The translations under genes and the position numbers were made by a program. A stretch of DNA of 64,000 nucleotides, taken from NCBI GenBank assembly GCA_905221615.1, contig CAJNDT010004890.1, positions 124,001 through 188,000 on the forward strand. The letters are read 5' to 3'. Below, one piece after another: positions 6,063 to 50,672 of the stretch; position 1 is the stretch's first letter; the number at the start of each line of letters is the position of its first letter. The notes below the pieces were generated by a model. The model worked only from the letters and a program-made list of their open reading frames with translations, was not told the origin of the DNA and did not search any database. This stretch comes from Symbiodinium sp. CCMP2592 (lineage: Eukaryota; Sar; Dinophyceae; Suessiales; Symbiodiniaceae).

Positions 6063-6570
6063 TTATTGTGTCGTTCTTCTTACCGAGCAGTCCTGCAAAG
6101 AGGCAGCTATCTTATTTTGCGCACAGGCTCACTATGCTTCGTTACTGGTACTGTTGCTGCATACAAGAAAGAGTGCGTTGCCCGACTCCAGCACCACTCC
6201 GTCCAGGGCCAGCCCAGACCTTCCAAAATCCCTTAATTAAGGAATATACCTTAAATCATAGTAGGAGCCCTAATATGATTTAAGGTATATTCCTTAATTA
6301 AGGGATTTTGGAAGGTCTGGGTCCTTGCACCACAGCATCGGAGTCGTCGATGGACGTGGGAAGCACACTGCCACCGACGTCTTCCACAGCCAACATGTCT
6401 TTGCTGGCCAGCATCGTGGCGCCAGCAGTCCGTCCCAGCCGGAGCAGTCCAGAGCTGGACCAAACACTTGCGTCTGCACCCTTGAAGTCGGCACTGAACT
6501 GCGGACGAAGAAGCACCTTCCCTGGGTATGCGCACGGCCTTGAGTCTCGGGCATCATTTGTTGGTTGCAT
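6063..6570 (-). CDS. Split gene, unknown protein, interrupted by a family A foldback
   Basis: The minus strand reads about 80 GC-ending codons from 6570 to 6322 (it includes PGKVLLRPQFSADFKGADAS). A 109-bp family A hairpin follows at 6213-6321, then LALDGVVLESGNALFL at 6165-6212. Exact removal of the hairpin keeps the frame. A GTATGC donor follows at 6164 and a TCTTTGCAG acceptor near 6100 leads to a short last exon with a TAA stop. The hairpin has no GT-AG ends, so it is either a non-canonical intron or a disabling insertion. The plus strand of the same region is also open. Confidence 0.5.
6213..6321. mobile_element. Foldback element, family A (clean copy)
   Basis: Near-perfect palindrome with ends CCCAGACCTTCCAAAATCCC and its inverse. 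The arms contain CCTTAATTAAGGAATATACC and a 10-12 base loop. Sits inside the coding-like frame described at 6063-6570. Confidence 0.92.
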
Positions 6571-26244: not shown

Positions 26245-26442
26245 CTTGGAGGCTCATGGGTAGTTATAAGGGTTCCGTTAAGGGTGCCTTTAGAGGGATC
26301 TATAGAGATTCTATAAGGGTATAGGGTTCAGGGTCTACTTGGAGGTTCATGGGTAGTTATAAGTGGGGTTACAAGTCCCCTAATATGGGTTATAAGCACA
26401 GGGTATTGTAAGCCCACTTGTAACTACCCATGAACCTCCAAG
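26245..26442. mobile_element. Compound family B element with leader module
   Basis: A first left arm (CTTGGAGGCTCATGGGTAGT) leads into the TCTATAGAGATTCTATAAGG module. A complete family B hairpin at 26338-26442 follows, flanked by TA on both sides. The same layout recurs at 42950-43133 and 44105-44303. Confidence 0.85.
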
Positions 26443-26446
26443 TAGT

Positions 26447-41173: not shown

Positions 41174-41276
41174 TGGGTGGTTGTCAAAATTATGGTCCCT
41201 TTTTGGGTCCCTAATATAGTACGGCACCTAATATTTAGGGTACCTCAAAATGGACCATGATTTTGACAACCACCCA
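41174..41276. mobile_element. Foldback element, family F, AG target duplication
   Basis: TGGGTGGTTGTCAAAATTAT to GATTTTGACAACCACCCA with AG directly outside both ends. Confidence 0.95.
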
Positions 41277-42311: not shown

Positions 42312-43173
42312 TTCTCATCTTGGCTCCCTGGCCTTGCATCTGCTTGCATGCGGAGTTTGCCCTTCCGGGTCTAAGCACCGAGAAACCCTCAGCCCCGAGT
42401 GAGGTGTTACGGTCAGAGTTTGCCAGGAAGCTGCCGGCCGGTACCAGCCGTGTCAGTGGTACGGTTCATGATATAAATCCTGCATTCCCATAATAAGGAG
42501 AATGCCATAGTTCCCATATTTTGGGTCCACAAGGTAATGCAGGATTTATATCATCAACCGTAGTGGTAATGTAGGGGTCTCAAACTGAGTTGCTGAGTTC
42601 ATAAGCCCCGAAAATCATACACTTTCAGCTTTATAGTGCGTAGTATTATCCCAAGAAGTGTAAAGTGTATCCACTCAGCTTCTAAGGTAATGTAGGGGCC
42701 TTAAAAATTACCTACCAGTACAACATCTTTGGGGCCCCCTTATTACAATTATGGTGTAATATAGCCCCAAACCCTATTCTATTTGTTAAGGCCCCTATAC
42801 TAAACCCTTCTAGTAGCCCATATAGACCCCTTTACGTAAAGGGACCCCTATTCTGATTTTTGAGGCCCCTACATTAGTGGTAGTGGTGGTCCTCTACATG
42901 ATATTCGGTCCCCTGGCTTCAAGCCTTGTGGCTTTGATCTTACGCTGTTTTGGAGGTTCATGGGCAGTTATACCTGTTCCTTTAAGGGTCCCTTTAAAGG
43001 TCTCTATAGCGATTCTATAAGGGTATTGTTTAGAGCCTACTTGGAGGTTCATGGGTAGTTATAGGTGGAGTGATAAGTCCCCTAATAAAAGTCTACTGAT
43101 AACCCCACTTACAACTACCCATGAACCTCCAGGTAGAACTGGCCAGGTTTATGGCTGATGGATCGTTGCTTTA
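42312..43173 (+). CDS. Gene split by a stack of foldbacks, unknown protein
   Basis: Segment 1 (42312-42459) reads CICLHAEFALPGLSTEKPSA and SEVLRSEFARKLPAGTSRVS. A stack of D, H and G foldbacks fills 42460-42879. Segment 2 (42880-42950) resumes as SGGPLHDIRSPGFKPCGFDL after ...CCTACATTAG, which would be the acceptor. A compound family B element follows, then segment 3 reads ELARFMADGSLL and TAG at about 43173. In segment 2 another frame encodes a hydrophobic LASSLVALILRCF, so phase is not certain. Confidence 0.48.
42460..42563. mobile_element. Foldback element, family D, TA-flanked
   Basis: CGGTTCATGATATAAATCC to TTTATATCATCAACCG. TA on both sides, and GTGG repeats outside. Confidence 0.92.
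42589..42678 (+). mobile_element. Foldback element, family H
   Basis: GTTGCTGAGTTCATAAGCC to GTATCCACTCAG. Same ends as 23865-23956. Confidence 0.85.
42689..42877. mobile_element. Family G foldback with an extra right end
   Basis: ATGTAGGGGCCTTAAAAATT to TTTGTTAAGGCCCCTATAC at 42799. A further right end, TTTTTGAGGCCCCTACATTA, lies at 42877. Confidence 0.8.
42950..43133. mobile_element. Compound family B element with leader module
   Basis: TTGGAGGTTCATGGGCAGTT, then the CCTTTAAAGGTCTCTATAGC module, then a full B hairpin (43038-43133), TA-flanked. Confidence 0.85.
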
Positions 43174-43999: not shown

Positions 44000-44104
44000 C
44001 AGGTTAGGCAGCCCGGCTGGCCATGCACGCGCAGGTGGAGAAGGCACTAACGTTCATTCAACATGCAAGCTGTGGCCGCCGAAGCGGACCTTTTCCATAT
44101 CCTC

Positions 44105-44303
44105 GGTTCATGGGCAGTTATACCCGTTCCTTTAAGGGTCCCTTTAAAGGGCTCTATAGCGATTCTATAAGGGTATAGGGTTTAGAGTCTACTTGGGGGT
44201 CCATGGGTAGTAATAAGTGGGGTGAAAAGTACGGTAACTAGAATTACAACCCCTTTTAGGAGACTTGTAACCCCCAACTTATTACTACCCATGAGCCTCC
44301 AAG
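44105..44303. mobile_element. Compound family B element with leader module
   Basis: GGTTCATGGGCAGTTATACC, then the CCTTTAAAGGGCTCTATAGC module, then a B hairpin to CATGAGCCTCCAAG, TA-flanked. Near-identical layout to 42950-43133. Confidence 0.85.
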
Positions 44304-44430
44304 TACGGCTTCGGGGGTTTAGAGCTGAGGTTTTAGGGGATTGGACTTGTGTAGTTTAGGGTTCAGGGTCGGCTGGGACCCCAAACCCTGAACCCGTAGA
44401 TCTACGGTTTACTTGAGGATTTCGGACGAA

Positions 44431-44516
44431 TATAGGGGCCTTAAAGATTTTAATACGCTTTGGGGGTTCCTTATTATCGTTATAGTATATTCCAGTTATT
44501 CAGGCCCCTGCATTAG
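44431..44516. mobile_element. Foldback element, family G, short
   Basis: ATAGGGGCCTTAAAGATTTT to CAGTTATTCAGGCCCCTGC. Confidence 0.75.
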
Positions 44517-44749
44517 GGGCCCCGATTCCCTGAACCCGGAGTTCGGGCGTGGCATTCTGAGTCTGGGACAAGGAGACCTTGAGGAGCCCAGCAAAAAATC
44601 TCGTACACTATTTTTTTAGGGTTTGGGGAGTAGGGTGTTGGGTTTAGGGGTTTACTGTAGTACAAGGAAATACACTACAACATACCTTAATGTACTCCCA
44701 TATACTATTATACACTATACTGTACCATCGCATACTACCATAATATACT

Positions 44750-44874
44750 CCCGGGCTCATGAACTGAAAACCGAAAAGCTGCAAACACCTGCGAGTCGTT
44801 CCTTTGACCGTAGCAGACCCGCTTCTATGGCACAACCGCTCTTCAACGACACGAAGACGTCCATAGATAGATAG
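44750..44874 (+). CDS. Exon-like frame, unknown
   Basis: Reads HELKTEKLQTPASRSFDRSR and PASMAQPLFNDTKTSIDR then TAG. Basic and hydrophilic. The preceding 100 bases are AT-rich. Confidence 0.4.
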
Positions 44875-45184
44875 GTACATACCTGCACTTAGACGCATAG
44901 ATCTACAAATACGTGGCCGTCACTGCTTCTCCCTCGCTTGCTGCTTATTGACGAGATATCTCCACATGTATGCATGTACAAAAATATGTATGCAGATGTA
45001 TGACATGGGACGTGATGCATATGTGTACAGAGTACAAGCAGACAGAAACACATGTGTTTACTACTAGCACGAGACTGGGCTTGAAGGCAGCAATGACGAA
45101 GCTTCTAGAACCATACCCTATACCCGGAAAGTCAAACCCTAAACCCCTATTGGATACACTTAGAACCCGACAACCCTTAAGCCG

Positions 45185-45490
45185 ATGAGCCGTGAAGCCA
45201 AACCCCCAAAACGTAAACCCTAAAATCTAAGTCTACCGCACACGAACCCTCAACCCTAAACCTATAAACCCAAGAAACTTAAGCCCACACAATCTCAACT
45301 CAAATCCCGGAAACGTTACCCCCAAAACCTTGAGCTCATGACCATGAAGCCTCAACATGAACTCTCAACCTTAAACCTTAAAAGCCTACCTACCTGGAAA
45401 GCCCAAATCCTACGACCTGAAGCCTCGAACGCTCATCCACAAACGCTGAAACCCTAGAGCCTTGTAGAACCCACAAAAAAACCCTATAAA
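45185..45490. repeat. Degenerate CCCTAAA-like tract
   Basis: C-rich, poorly conserved heptamers. No gene seen. Confidence 0.55.
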
Positions 45491-45593
45491 GGGAACTCCA
45501 GAAAGTTGGAATATGGTTTCAGGGTAGGATACCTTATATTTTACCATAGAAGGGTTATATACGATAACCATGTTCCAACTTTCTGGCTTTTAC
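45487..45593. mobile_element. Foldback element, family K
   Basis: CCAGAAAGTTGGAATATGGT to CATGTTCCAACTTTCTGGC. The interior is inverted relative to 42131-42222. Confidence 0.9.
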
Positions 45594-45793
45594 CTCAACA
45601 CCCTGTGTCGCGCACTTTGCTGCCATGGGACTCTCTTCCAGGCCTTATCGCGCCGGCGCTGGGACGACTGCAGATGCTTTCGGGCGTCAGCATGCCTAGA
45701 GACAGGTTCTACGTTTAGGACTTCAGGTTTTGGGTCTGTGTGGTTCGGGGCAGATGCATGTTATTCCGGTGTTCAAGACCCAGCCAGCAACTA
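45594..45793 (+). CDS. Coding-like region, frame uncertain
   Basis: All three plus frames are open for 40-70 codons directly after the family K hairpin. The longest includes RRRWDDCRCFRASACLETGS and ends in TAA. No domain recognised. Confidence 0.33.
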
Positions 45794-45799
45794 ATCATC

Positions 45800-45919
45800 A
45801 TGACATGATATCTAGTTTTAAGCGGGGTTATCAATCCCCTAACACGGGTAATAATTGTAGTTATAGTTACCCTACTTGTCACCCCACTTATAACTGATAA
45901 CTACCCATGAACCTTCAAG
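45800..45919. mobile_element. Family B foldback, left end worn
   Basis: The interior GGGTTATCAATCCCCTAACAC and right arm CTACCCATGAACCTTCAAG are clear. Confidence 0.7.
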
Positions 45920-45959
45920 TAAAAGAACAGCCTTCCTACTCATAGACGCTCTGATCCTA

Positions 45960-46340
45960 CTGTTGACTCTAAACCCATAAACCCTAAAACCCAAACCCTA
46001 AAACCTAAACCCCAATTGAGAATGGAGCCGAATTCTTACAATCGAAATCATACAGATTTTTTCGGTAGAATCTTCCGCGTGTTGGCAGCCGTCTGCAATG
46101 CCTGTCTCAGCAGAACAAGCTAAACCCCTAATAACTAATAAGCCTAAGCCCCTAAACGCTAAACCGCTAGTAACCCTAATTCCCTAAACCCGAAACCCCA
46201 ACACCAAACCCCGAACTCAGAAGATCGGCCGCGCTCCCTTCCAAAAGTCTTTGAGCCTAAATCCTAGACACCTAGACAGGCTCCCGATCCGAGGTTCTAG
46301 AAATTGAGTCGTAAACCCCCACAACTCTAGGGTTTAGGGT
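45960..46340. repeat. Degenerate CCCTAAA-like tract
   Basis: C-rich tracts at 45970-46020 and 46110-46330, with unique sequence between. Two exact TTTAGGG copies at 46320-46345 have the opposite polarity. Confidence 0.6.
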
Positions 46341-46386
46341 TTAGGGTTCTCTGTCTCAAGAACAGCAAACGTGGCAGAAGCTTGGC

Positions 46387-46975
46387 TCAATTCGCTTCCT
46401 GAAAAACCCAGACCATGTGTCTCCCCGTGCCGCACGCTGGAGCCAATCCCAGCAAGAGACACTTGGAGGGTCTTTAGGGGACTTAGTAAGTAGGTAGTAA
46501 GCAGACTTATAAGTACCCTAACAGGGACCCTAACTAGGGTTATGGTACTTGTAAGTCTAAAAAAATAACCAGTTACTATAAGTCCCCCGACCCTCCAAGC
46601 AGGGTGTGGCGGCTCTGAGCGCTGGGGAATGCCGCTTGTGCTGCATCCACGTCAGGCGACTTCCAGGGCTTCCATGTCCATACGGTAGTTTCCGAAAATT
46701 AGGGGTACCTATTTTGGGGTCCTTAAAAATAAGGATCCTATTATTTAGGGTACTATATTAGGGTACTCCATTTTCGGAAACTCCCATACCGCGTAGAACT
46801 CGTCCTGCGAACCTGTTGCAGGCACCACCCTTGTGGGTGTGGCAGCCTGATGCGCGCGTTCGAGGCGAGAAGGCAGCTTGAGGATGCAGGCCGTCCTGTC
46901 AACAACTCGTCAAACTTGAGCCGGCACCCTCGGAAAGTAGCAATCCTAACCGCTTGCAGCTTTCGGGTCGAGGGG
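46387..46975 (-). CDS. Gene interrupted by two foldbacks (E and C), frame restored on removal
   Basis: Minus-strand segment 1 (46975-46789) reads LQAVRIATFRGCRLKFDELL and NARIRLPHPQGWCLQQVRRT with strong codon use. Deleting 46681-46786 (family E plus one TA) continues in frame as HGSPGSRLTWMQHKRHSPAL. Deleting 46460-46599 (family C plus one CA) continues as LLLGLAPACGTGRHMVWVFQ then TGA at 46387. The result is about 110 codons without a stop. Neither deletion is a multiple of three. The 5' side touches a family G foldback (46977). Protein family unknown, basic with few acidic residues. Either a gene with introner-type introns or a recently broken one. Confidence 0.62.
46462..46599. mobile_element. 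Foldback element, family C, CA target duplication
   Basis: CTTGGAGGGTCTTTAGGGGA to AGTCCCCCGACCCTCCAAG. CA at 46460-46461 and 46600-46601. Confidence 0.95.
46683..46786. mobile_element. Foldback element, family E, TA target duplication
   Basis: CGGTAGTTTCCGAAAATTAG to CATTTTCGGAAACTCCCA. TA at 46681-46682 and 46787-46788. Confidence 0.93.
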
Positions 46976-46976
46976 T

Positions 46977-47172
46977 AGTGTAGGGGCCTCAGAAGCTGGA
47001 CTGGTATGGCGACTATCAGGGCATAGTATGACTATTTGTTCTGTGCCCTGATCTTCCTCGGGGTCCCAAGTCACAAAGGGACTGAATAAATAGAACAGGG
47101 TTTCGGGGCCCATAATACTATAATTACAAAAAGGAACCCCGAAATAGTATTGGTAATTATTCAGGCCCCTAT
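46977..47172. mobile_element. Family G foldback, enlarged
   Basis: TGTAGGGGCCTCAGAAGCTG to TAATTATTCAGGCCCCTATC. About 95 extra bases near the left arm include an inverted CAGGGCATAGTATGACTATT/CTGTGCCCTG pair. Confidence 0.8.
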
Positions 47173-47294
47173 CCTAAACCCTAAACCCTATAGATCCCTT
47201 AAAGGAGCCCTTCAGGATCCCTGTAGGCTAGATTATTGAAATGTTGGTCCAAAAGCCTTTGGACGCCTAGATTTCTCCAGCCCTCTGAGTTGGT

Positions 47295-47400
47295 TCCAGG
47301 GTTTAGGGTTTTAGGATTTTTAGGGTGTCGGGGTTTAAGGGTTTAGGGGTTTAGGGCTCAGGGTTTTAAGGTTAAGGGTTTAGGGTCTAGGGTTTAGGTT
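47295..47400. repeat. TTTAGGG-like tract
   Basis: G-rich decayed heptamers. Confidence 0.75.
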
Positions 47401-47597
47401 CCCGAACCCCGCAATAGAAGCCACACGCAAAGCCACATCACGACAACCCTGAGCCCAAAATCCCAAACTCGGGAATTTAAACTAGAGGACTCCGAGATAA
47501 ACAGGAAAAAATTACAAAGAGGCACCGCAAAACAACACCGACACATACTAATGCCAATATACTGCTGACGCTCTACCCCAAACCCTAAACCCTAAAC

Positions 47598-47790
47598 CTG
47601 GCAAAACCAACATCCCTTGAGAGCCTTGATCCCCACATGCACAGGATGGAGCCCTTGCAGAGCCACTTCGGAACCCTTTCAAGCCATAGAGCCCATAGAA
47701 AGCATGAAGACTACTAGCCCAGAACTCTAAATCCCAATAACATGCTGGCAGAACCCTCGACAGGACCAAAAAAAAACCCACGACCCTGCA
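47598..47790 (-). CDS. Possible exon inside a repeat-fed frame
   Basis: The minus strand reads LSRVLPACYWDLEFWASSLH and GSARAPSCACGDQGSQGMLV. Both flanks are telomere-like translation. Aromatic-rich and unrecognised. Confidence 0.33.
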
Positions 47791-48014
47791 CCTTAAGCTT
47801 TCTGAACCCCAAAACTCCGTCAATCCCTGCACCCTTGAACCAAACCCTAAACTCTGAACCCCTAAACCCAAAACTCTATATCCCTTAATCCAAAACCCTA
47901 ACCCCTGTAGTTGTAAACTCAAAACGCTTGTGGGCCTATGATGCCCCGGCGCAGGGAAGAGCGAGGACCTATGCTTCTTCCAGCGTTTTCTTCATTTTTT
48001 GGGGATCTTGGGGT

Positions 48015-48119
48015 TTCCCCAAGGGTCCAAAGGACCCAATAATCAGGTACCCGGTTTTACGATATGTAGGTTAGGATTTTGGAGAGTATATGACTATCAG
48101 GTACTTGGACCCTTGAGGT
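48015..48119. mobile_element. Small foldback, family R
   Basis: CCCCAAGGGTCCAAAGG at the left and TACTTGGACCCTTGAGG at the right, with ATCAGGTACC blocks inside each arm. Confidence 0.55.
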
Positions 48120-48133
48120 TTGGGGTTAGGATT

Positions 48134-48236
48134 TGGGAGTTTCCGAAAATCAGGGATACCTTATTTTGGGGGCCTTATAATAAGGATCCTACTATTTAGG
48201 GCACTATATTAGGGTCCCGTATTCTCGGAAACTCCC
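48134..48236. mobile_element. Foldback element, family E, TT-flanked
   Basis: TGGGAGTTTCCGAAAATCAG to TATTCTCGGAAACTCCCA. Confidence 0.92.
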
Positions 48237-48239
48237 ATT

Positions 48240-48412
48240 TTAGTGTTGGGATGTTTTAGGGTTTAGGGTGTGAGGCTCTCGGGTGTTCAAAGGTTTTGCA
48301 TTTTAGGGTTTGGGGTTTATAGTTTTACGGTTTTGGGGTTTATAGGTTTAGGTTTTGGGTTTGTAGGTCCAGGGATTTAGGGCGTAAGGATTTTAGGTCT
48401 AGGTCTGGGGTT
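48240..48412. repeat. TTTAGGG/TTTTGGGGTTT tract
   Basis: G-rich decayed heptamers. Confidence 0.7.
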
Positions 48413-48700
48413 TGGTTTTCTTTGAATGTTGCTACGGAGTTGGGGTTGAAGTTCAGTTGAAGGGGGAAGCGGGCGAGGGGTGCTGGAAGGTGCAAGGATG
48501 CCCACCAGCAGGGTTACAAGACTGGGGTGGTTGTCAAAATTATAGTGCCTTTTTGGAAACTCCAAATATTAGGTGCAGTATAATAATAAGGACCCCGGAC
48601 CCCCAAAGGGACCCTAATATTGACAACCACCCACTTTGAGTACGGCAGCAAAAGTTGTCCTCCAAGGGGCTGGAAGCCTCTAAGCCCTAAACCCAACACC
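48412..48700 (+). CDS. Reading frame interrupted by a CT-flanked family F foldback
   Basis: Left segment reads VFFECCYGVGVEVQLKGEAG and WKVQGCPPAGLQD. Deleting 48524-48635 (the hairpin plus one CT, 112 bases) continues in frame as FEYGSKSCPPRGWK before telomere-like codons. Left to right the frame is open for about 90 codons. Cys-containing and small, unknown family. Confidence 0.52.
48524..48633. mobile_element. Foldback element, family F, CT target duplication
   Basis: GGGGTGGTTGTCAAAATTAT to AATATTGACAACCACCCA. CT at 48522-48523 and 48634-48635. Confidence 0.94.
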
Positions 48701-48716
48701 CAAAGCCTACCCCCTA

Positions 48717-49229
48717 CTTGGAGGGTCGGGGGACTTAGTAACTGGCTATTTGGAGTCCGGTTTATGACCTAGCGAGTCTATGTTTCTTTTGTGTTTCAAG
48801 GGCTCCTTTCTCGTGGTTTGCGGTTGAGGATACAGGGTTTGAGGGTTGGCGTCATGTTCCTACTTTTACGATCTTCTAAGTCCTGGCTACTGTAAGGGGT
48901 TAACAATAAGGCGGCTGCAAAGGGTACTGCGAGGTTACCATCAGTGTCTAGGGAACTGCTGGGTTGATGCTTTTCAGTTTAGGGTTTAGGGTTTAGGGTT
49001 TCCGGTGCAGGGTTTGGGGACTAGGGTTCATGGGTTTCGGGCAGAAGGGCCGTTTCCAACTACGGTGGATGATATAAATCCTGCGTTACCCATGATAAGG
49101 ACTAGACCATTATTCGCAAGGTCTGGGGTCAGGGACTTAGAAGTGCCATAACCCCAATTAGGGTCCCCTTTAGGGTACTTATAAGTCTACTTTCTACCTA
49201 CTTACTACGTCCCCTAAAGACCTTCCAAG
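48717..49229. mobile_element. Family C foldback split by a 384-bp insertion
   Basis: The left arm (48717-48752, CTTGGAGGGTCGGGGGACTT ... CTGGCTATT) and the rest of the element (49137-49229, AGGGACTTAGAAGTGCCATA ... CCTTCCAAG) are collinear with the reverse-oriented copy at 26107-26238. The inserted DNA holds a coding-like segment and half of a family D element (49061-49110). Confidence 0.82.
48796..48975 (-). CDS. Coding-like segment carried inside a family C element
   Basis: The minus strand reads SLDTDGNLAVPFAAALLLTP and SQDLEDRKSRNMTPTLKPCI, ending RKPRERSP and TGA. About 54 codons, clean of repeat. Could be a captured exon. Confidence 0.5.
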   Translation of the reverse strand, partial: EKHQPSSSLDTDGNLAVPFAAALLLTPYSSQDLEDRKSRNMTPTLKPCILNRKPRERSP

Positions 49230-50426: not shown

Positions 50427-50570
50427 TTCCTTTTGCTGCCACCAGCGCTATGGTTCCTACTGCTGCAATACTATGTCTAGTCACGCTTACTTTTCTTATT
50501 CGCTACGAATATGACCTAACAGCGATGGGGACTCCTGGAAACCCAAACAACCCGGCACGTGTCGCAATAT
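50427..50570 (+). CDS. Membrane-segment exon, unknown protein
   Basis: Reads ATSAMVPTAAILCLVTLTFL then IRYEYDLTAMGTPGNPNNPA and RVA up to a family G foldback. The hydrophobic run of about 17 residues followed by Arg and acidic residues fits a transmembrane helix. CTTCTTCCTTTTGCTGCCACCAG upstream is a plausible acceptor. Confidence 0.52.
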
Positions 50571-50672
50571 AGGGGCCTTAACAATTGGAATAGGGTTTTG
50601 GGGCCAAGTCTACTATATTAATAAGAAGGAACCCCCCAAAATAGTGTGGGTAATTATTAAGGCCCCTATATA
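50568..50672. mobile_element. Foldback element, family G
   Basis: TATAGGGGCCTTAACAATTG to TAATTATTAAGGCCCCTATA. Confidence 0.93.

Follow-up and report, generated by a model that had tools for sequence, protein, structure and literature searches.

We analysed a window of 64,000 nucleotides, the whole stretch of DNA under study (positions 124001-188000 of contig C4874), and searched the assembly, which holds 1,098,105,373 bases in 5383 contigs. Positions 46387 to 46975 of the window contain two foldback elements, here called C and E, and three segments of host DNA that have been proposed to form one minus-strand gene interrupted by the elements. The features of this locus, with the target duplications taken from a reading of the flanks, are as follows.

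46387..46461, minus strand: host segment in which the joined frame terminates at TGA, candidate coding
46460..46461, plus strand: left copy (CA) of the C target duplication
46462..46599, no strand: element C, a 138-bp foldback with ends CTTGGAGGGTC...GACCCTCCAAG
46600..46601, plus strand: right copy (CA) of the C target duplication
46602..46682, minus strand: host segment between C and E, candidate coding
46680..46683, plus strand: left copy of the E target duplication, ATAC (GTAT on the minus strand)
46684..46785, no strand: element E, a foldback of about 102 bp with consensus ends GGGAGTTTCCGAAAAT...ATTTTCGGAAACTCCC, the left end being mutated in this copy
46786..46789, plus strand: right copy (ATAC) of the E target duplication
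46789..46975, minus strand: host segment upstream on the minus strand, candidate coding

Ends, copy number, target duplications and divergence of the two elements

Both foldback elements noticed in the preliminary description are real, and they are copies of two abundant families of short inverted-repeat transposons. When the minus strand is folded as RNA, the C hairpin reaches -63.1 kcal/mol (z -6.5 relative to dinucleotide shuffles) and the E hairpin -35.6 kcal/mol (z -5.0), and in each case none of 200 shuffled sequences folds as well. The window carries at least 8 full-length C-like copies and several E-like copies, 264 kb of contig C4874 contain 16 full and 8 partial copies of C together with 16 full and 15 partial copies of E, and 6356 E elements with both 12-bp ends exact are found genome-wide. 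A search of Rfam produced nothing at the gathering score, and pattern scans of viral and of bacterial/archaeal contigs gave 0 matches.

The placement of C at 46462-46599, between CA and CA, is confirmed. Our sample of this family comes from 39 genome loci and comprises 42 full copies for which both flanks were read (3 partial copies were set aside); these loci are the best genome matches, i.e., the copies nearest to the locus copy. A 2-bp direct repeat flanks 38 of the 42 copies, namely TA in 26, CA in 7, TG in 3 and AA in 2. Because the CA/CA and TG/TG repeats are direct rather than inverted, they represent true target duplications of C. One copy (L024) lies within a run of CCCTAAA, and deletion of the element along with one TA restores the array.

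Element E had been described as occupying 46683-46786 with TA on either side. The hairpin itself stands, whereas the boundaries and the TA do not, since the TA is the middle of an ATAC/ATAC repeat. An exact 4-bp repeat is present in 10 of 30 E copies, compared to 2.0 expected when the right flanks are re-dealt, and the excess indicates that E is better bounded at 46684-46785, which leaves the number of bases removed (106) unchanged. Nine of the 10 exact repeats have the form ANNT, and the repeat at the locus copy is ATAC. A 2-bp (TA) duplication had been considered for this family as well and was replaced by the 4-bp duplication once loci with AGGT targets were read. The suggestion that both are mobile elements with target duplications is therefore borne out. 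Both have the properties of MITEs, being short (138 and about 102 bp), near-palindromic, bounded by terminal inverted repeats and devoid of coding capacity, with a high copy number and a target duplication specific to the family.

The proposal that the elements entered the locus recently finds no support in their divergence. Relative to its subfamily consensus, the locus copy of C has 8 mismatches in 135 positions (5.9%) plus 3 gap columns, a divergence that is the joint highest among 29 copies; the locus copy of E, with 14 mismatches in 104 positions (13.5%), ranks fourth in divergence among 16. Since many other members of family C lie within 1% of the consensus, this family has been active recently, although the locus copy is not among the young ones.

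The joined reading frame

The preliminary description placed C and E inside one gene on the strength of an open frame restored by their removal. With both elements retained, no frame spans them; deletion of 140 and 106 bases does join a minus-strand frame that ends with the TGA at 46387 and measures 132 codons from stop to stop. The same exact removal produces four frames that span both junctions, two on the minus strand (132 and 109 codons) and two on the plus strand (109 and 96 codons). When C and E are each removed together with 0, 1 or 2 additional bases, a frame of no fewer than 110 codons crosses both junctions in all nine combinations, on one or other of the two strands. Since every combination opens a frame, we reject the restored frame as evidence for a gene. 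The host sequence contains 13 stop codons over the six frames, compared to 15.7 +/- 2.8 in dinucleotide shuffles, and 212 of 1000 shuffles have as few. An end-to-end open frame occurs in 16 of 56 GC-matched 343-base stretches of the window (overlapping, in 25-base steps) and in 12.7% of 2000 mononucleotide shuffles of the host; the joined host scores 0 on this strict count because the TGA of the frame falls just inside. For family C as a whole, taking out the 42 copies with 0, 1 or 2 additional bases leaves spanning frames that average 70.1, 69.5 and 68.2 codons, respectively, and the 2-base removal is best in 16 of the 42; with means this similar, family C as a group shows no tie between insertion and reading frame.

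Searches for homologues point in the same direction. The four joined frames match no Pfam family at E 1, the six read-through frames of 44001-49000 match none at 0.01, and the joined protein has no match in the PDB at E 1. In the 1.1-Gb genome the joined host DNA (401 bases) has no match at E 1 other than itself, in a search that skips very common words. GC content by codon position is 0.57/0.61/0.63 in the joined minus-strand frame, whereas all 10 ORFs of the contig used for comparison, most of which are not proven genes, have their lowest GC at position 2; the RCC1-repeat gene described below, for example, has 0.63/0.50/0.62. Scoring of the joined frame by codon usage was also attempted and set aside as having no power, as it failed to tell the RCC1-repeat gene's sense frame apart from the other frames of that gene.

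With no domain match, an unremarkable frame and no second genome copy of the host DNA, we find no support for the claim that the elements lie inside one gene, and in all likelihood the frame that they interrupt is open by chance. Pfam matches are also missing from several long ORFs of contig C4874, and the absence of a domain at the locus may be compatible with a lineage-specific gene.

Nor do the element ends favour the suggestion that the two hairpins are spliced as introns at this locus, as neither has a splice pair that would allow exact removal. On the minus strand, E reads GTAT/GGGAG.../GTAT: a GT is available on the 5' side, whereas the 3' side lacks an AG and the next AG is located downstream in host sequence; on the plus strand there is no splice pair for exact removal. 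The minus-strand reading of C is TG/CTTGG...CCAAG/TG, with an AG at the 3' end and a 5' GC that lies one base ahead of the element, so that the GC-AG pair would take 139 bases, one short of 140.

Family E at AGGT targets

Elsewhere in the genome family E probably does make introns, to judge from sequence, where it is inserted at AGGT targets (AG/GT-element-AG/GT). An E copy at a sense-strand AGGT would form a GT-AG intron because the target duplication supplies both splice sites. Such copies interrupt genes with ubiquitin-like and RCC1, FKBP and NYN domains, and exact removal of the GT-AG segment restores the protein. The first of these genes came to light when the contig was screened for genuine genes of any kind, and the case was not picked by its target letters. 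Its features are as follows.

C4874:225054-228000 (L062 7054-10000), minus strand: gene with a ubiquitin-like domain and RCC1 repeats (Pfam RCC1_2, 8.2e-23)
C4874:227054-227156: E copy in the N-terminal ubiquitin-like domain of this gene
C4874:225835-225966: C copy in a putative intron of this gene, not itself the intron

The E site in this gene reads GAGGT/GGGAG...GTCCC/AGGTC, and the GT-AG intron would consist of exactly the element and one AGGT. After joining, the N-terminus matches the Pfam ubiquitin family at 9.1e-6 (25.8 bits, just over the cut-off), compared to 0.022 for the unjoined downstream piece and no match for the upstream piece, and the ubiquitin alignment is ungapped over the E junction. 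The element is 8.7% diverged from the consensus (9 of 103 positions) and the exon that follows it runs for 360 codons with no stop, which argues that the gene stayed functional after the insertion. A second E-like element lies near the 3' part of the same gene region.

Additional cases come from loci where the element has GG at both borders. Pfam was run on 6 of 30 such joined loci, picked by eye; FKBP and NYN matches scored above the cut-off, one locus below it, and three had no match. The FKBP case (L094, AGGT, C363 about 204080-204186) has a Pfam E-value of 1.6e-15, and joining does not raise the score (57.6 bits, compared to 59.1 for the downstream piece), so the support for this case is the PDB alignment, which is ungapped over the junction. 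The NYN case (L085, AGGT, C88 about 99522) scores 26.4 bits when joined, compared to 22.2 for the downstream piece and no match for the upstream piece, with a cut-off of 24.2. At the sub-threshold locus (L101, C791:18187-18697) an AGGT copy lies in an apparent potassium-channel S5 segment, with an ion-channel Pfam match of 16.2 bits (cut-off 25).

The genome-wide counts put these cases into perspective. Among the 6356 intact E copies, the dinucleotide present on both sides is TA in 2102, GG in 80, GC in 7 and CG in 11, in pattern counts that left the outer A and T of the target unspecified. When the genome counts are set against the numbers of background sites in 264 kb, the figures are 80/2251 for GG/CC, 7/1138 for GC, 11/422 for CG and 2102/1013 for TA. 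Per available site, GG is thus about 6 times as frequent as GC and hardly more frequent than CG, and the counts consequently lend no support to selection for AGGT. AGGT stands on both sides in 26 of the 30 GG loci read. Twenty loci had been fetched by a GG at the left end, 10 of which lacked a right-hand GG and were excluded ahead of the frame test; one locus (L071) was retained despite a poor right end with 8 mismatches in 17 positions. In the frame test of the 30 GG loci, mean frame lengths in the sense orientation are 73.4 codons after exact removal and 70.8 and 75.5 codons with 1 and 2 additional bases, the corresponding antisense values are 69.8, 72.4 and 71.0 codons, and exact removal gives the longest frame in 9 of 30. 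Exact removal therefore has no average frame signal among these 30 loci, which speaks against a simple claim that GG copies are introns; most GG-type copies may lie outside coding exons. We lean towards the view that family E is a conditional introner, which becomes an intron at a sense AGGT and is an ordinary insertion at other ANNT targets.

Origin of the locus and relation to known elements

Our preferred explanation, to which we assign a probability of about 0.8, is that the locus consists of two independent and fairly old MITE-type insertions into single-copy GC-rich DNA with no sign of a gene. Each element would have arrived by cut-and-paste, with a target duplication of 2 bp (CA) for C and 4 bp (ATAC) for E and with transposase presumably supplied in trans, and neither locus copy would be removed from RNA. 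The restored frame would be the expected product of stop-poor sequence with such composition. With E lacking a 3' AG and C off by one base, the AGGT mechanism of E cannot remove either element exactly at this locus; an E copy would yield a GT-AG intron given a sense AGGT target, and the ATAC copy would be unable to do so. What counts against this explanation is that a non-canonical spliceosome, or a 139-base GC-AG intron at C, may be at work.

Three other explanations can be compared with it. An unlikely one is that a gene has its exons elsewhere and that C and E belong to one of its untranslated regions or to a larger intron of the conventional kind. Family C would have a precedent for this elsewhere on contig C4874, in the gene with RCC1 repeats, where it appears within the putative intron and not as an intron; against it, no exon detectable by Pfam occurs in 44001-49000, which together with one long ORF makes up the part of the window scanned in this way, although introns hide exons. 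Still less probable is a once functional gene that was broken by both insertions and is now a pseudogene. Its frame would be open as observed, and removing an element with one target copy restores the frame of any coding insertion, but the other frames are equally open, the searches found neither a homologue nor a second copy of the sequence, and its codon-position composition differs from that of the comparison ORFs. We see very little chance that C and E are introners of a real lineage-specific gene, spliced via hairpin-joined non-canonical ends as proposed for Amoebophrya: the stable folds, the frame left open by exact removal of both elements, the probable introns of family E elsewhere in the genome, the Amoebophrya introners with their inverted repeats, direct repeats of 3-5 nt and non-canonical ends (PMC7789003) and the GT/GC/GA-AG ends in use in dinoflagellate introns (PMC11453091) all agree with this explanation, but E lacks the 3' AG and C offers only the off-by-one GC-AG, the frame is unremarkable and has no codon-position signal, no homologue (Pfam, PDB) or second genome copy was found, and the three domain-matched E cases have canonical GT-AG ends at AGGT. 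The term introner-like, which the preliminary description applied to the hairpins, consequently suits family E at AGGT targets elsewhere in the genome and neither of the two copies at this locus.

Considered as two MITE-type insertions, C and E can be related to several known systems. MITEs of the Tc1/mariner type use a TA target and have a strict TA duplication. C and E resemble these TA-target elements in being short, non-coding and present in many copies with inverted ends, and in having TA as the commonest insertion dinucleotide. Unlike them, C is found at TA in 26 of 42 copies and at CA, TG or AA in 12, and E has a 4-bp duplication of the form ANNT. According to PMC9860276, introner family 1 of Symbiodinium microadriaticum is, like E, a short non-autonomous element in a dinoflagellate with terminal inverted repeats and a 4-bp duplication, and E copies at AGGT share with it the use of a splice site drawn from the duplication. 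That family carries a 3' splice site of its own and derives the 5' site from the duplication, whereas E would take both from the duplication; in a further difference, the majority of intact E copies lie at targets other than AGGT, and the locus copy is at ATAC. Introner families with both splice sites from the target or its duplication are reported in the same source (PMC9860276). C and E are also similar to the Amoebophrya introners as dinoflagellate hairpin elements with inverted and short direct repeats, but according to PMC7789003 those introners have mostly non-canonical splice ends, unlike the GT-AG predicted for E in the three gene cases. In Prorocentrum cordatum, introner elements are enriched among introns (PMC10666404).

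The locus itself is of little significance, as the verdict is an ordinary pair of transposons and a coincidental open frame, and it serves as a warning that, where stop codons are few, a frame produced by element removal counts as weak evidence. What deserves to be followed is the possible role of family E as a conditional introner. Transposons are already known to give rise to introns, in dinoflagellates included. If our view of family E is correct, one genome would hold intron-competent and intron-incompetent E copies that can be told apart by the 4-bp target, which would help to distinguish insertion bias from selection. With GG on both sides in 80 of the 6356 E elements, the full insertion spectrum could then be compared with the exon subset, and selection on new introns could be measured directly.

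The window contains further foldback families with other ends (CCCAGAGACTCC, CTTGGAGGTTCATGG, TGGGTGGTTGTCAAAATTA, TAATGTAGG and ATATAGGGGCC), located at 6213-6321, 26335-26445, 41174-41276, 42688-42876, 50567-50671 and other positions; the CTTGGAGG end of family C is common to some of them. Degenerate CCCTAAA/TTTAGGG arrays occur across the whole window (45980-46350, 47300-47400 and others), distant from the contig end, with 155 tandem-repeat rows in all, and the telomere-type words CCCTAAA and TTTAGGG are found 215 and 163 times, respectively. Telomeres of TTTAGGG are a dinoflagellate feature, according to PMC11453091. The dinoflagellate spliced-leader motif has 429 exact matches in the genome and 0 for the reversed control. 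These features, together with a genome size near 1 Gb, point to a dinoflagellate host, perhaps in the size class of the Symbiodiniaceae. On the same contig, C4874:34892-55143 holds a cluster of long ORFs (1205, 1205, 893, 810, 387 and 377 aa), possibly a large mobile element, in which a Pfam match was obtained for 1 of 5 ORFs scanned, a weak one that falls short of the cut-off (VapE-like, 1.7e-4). The two 1205-aa ORFs are near-identical over the 70 residues printed, which suggests a duplication.
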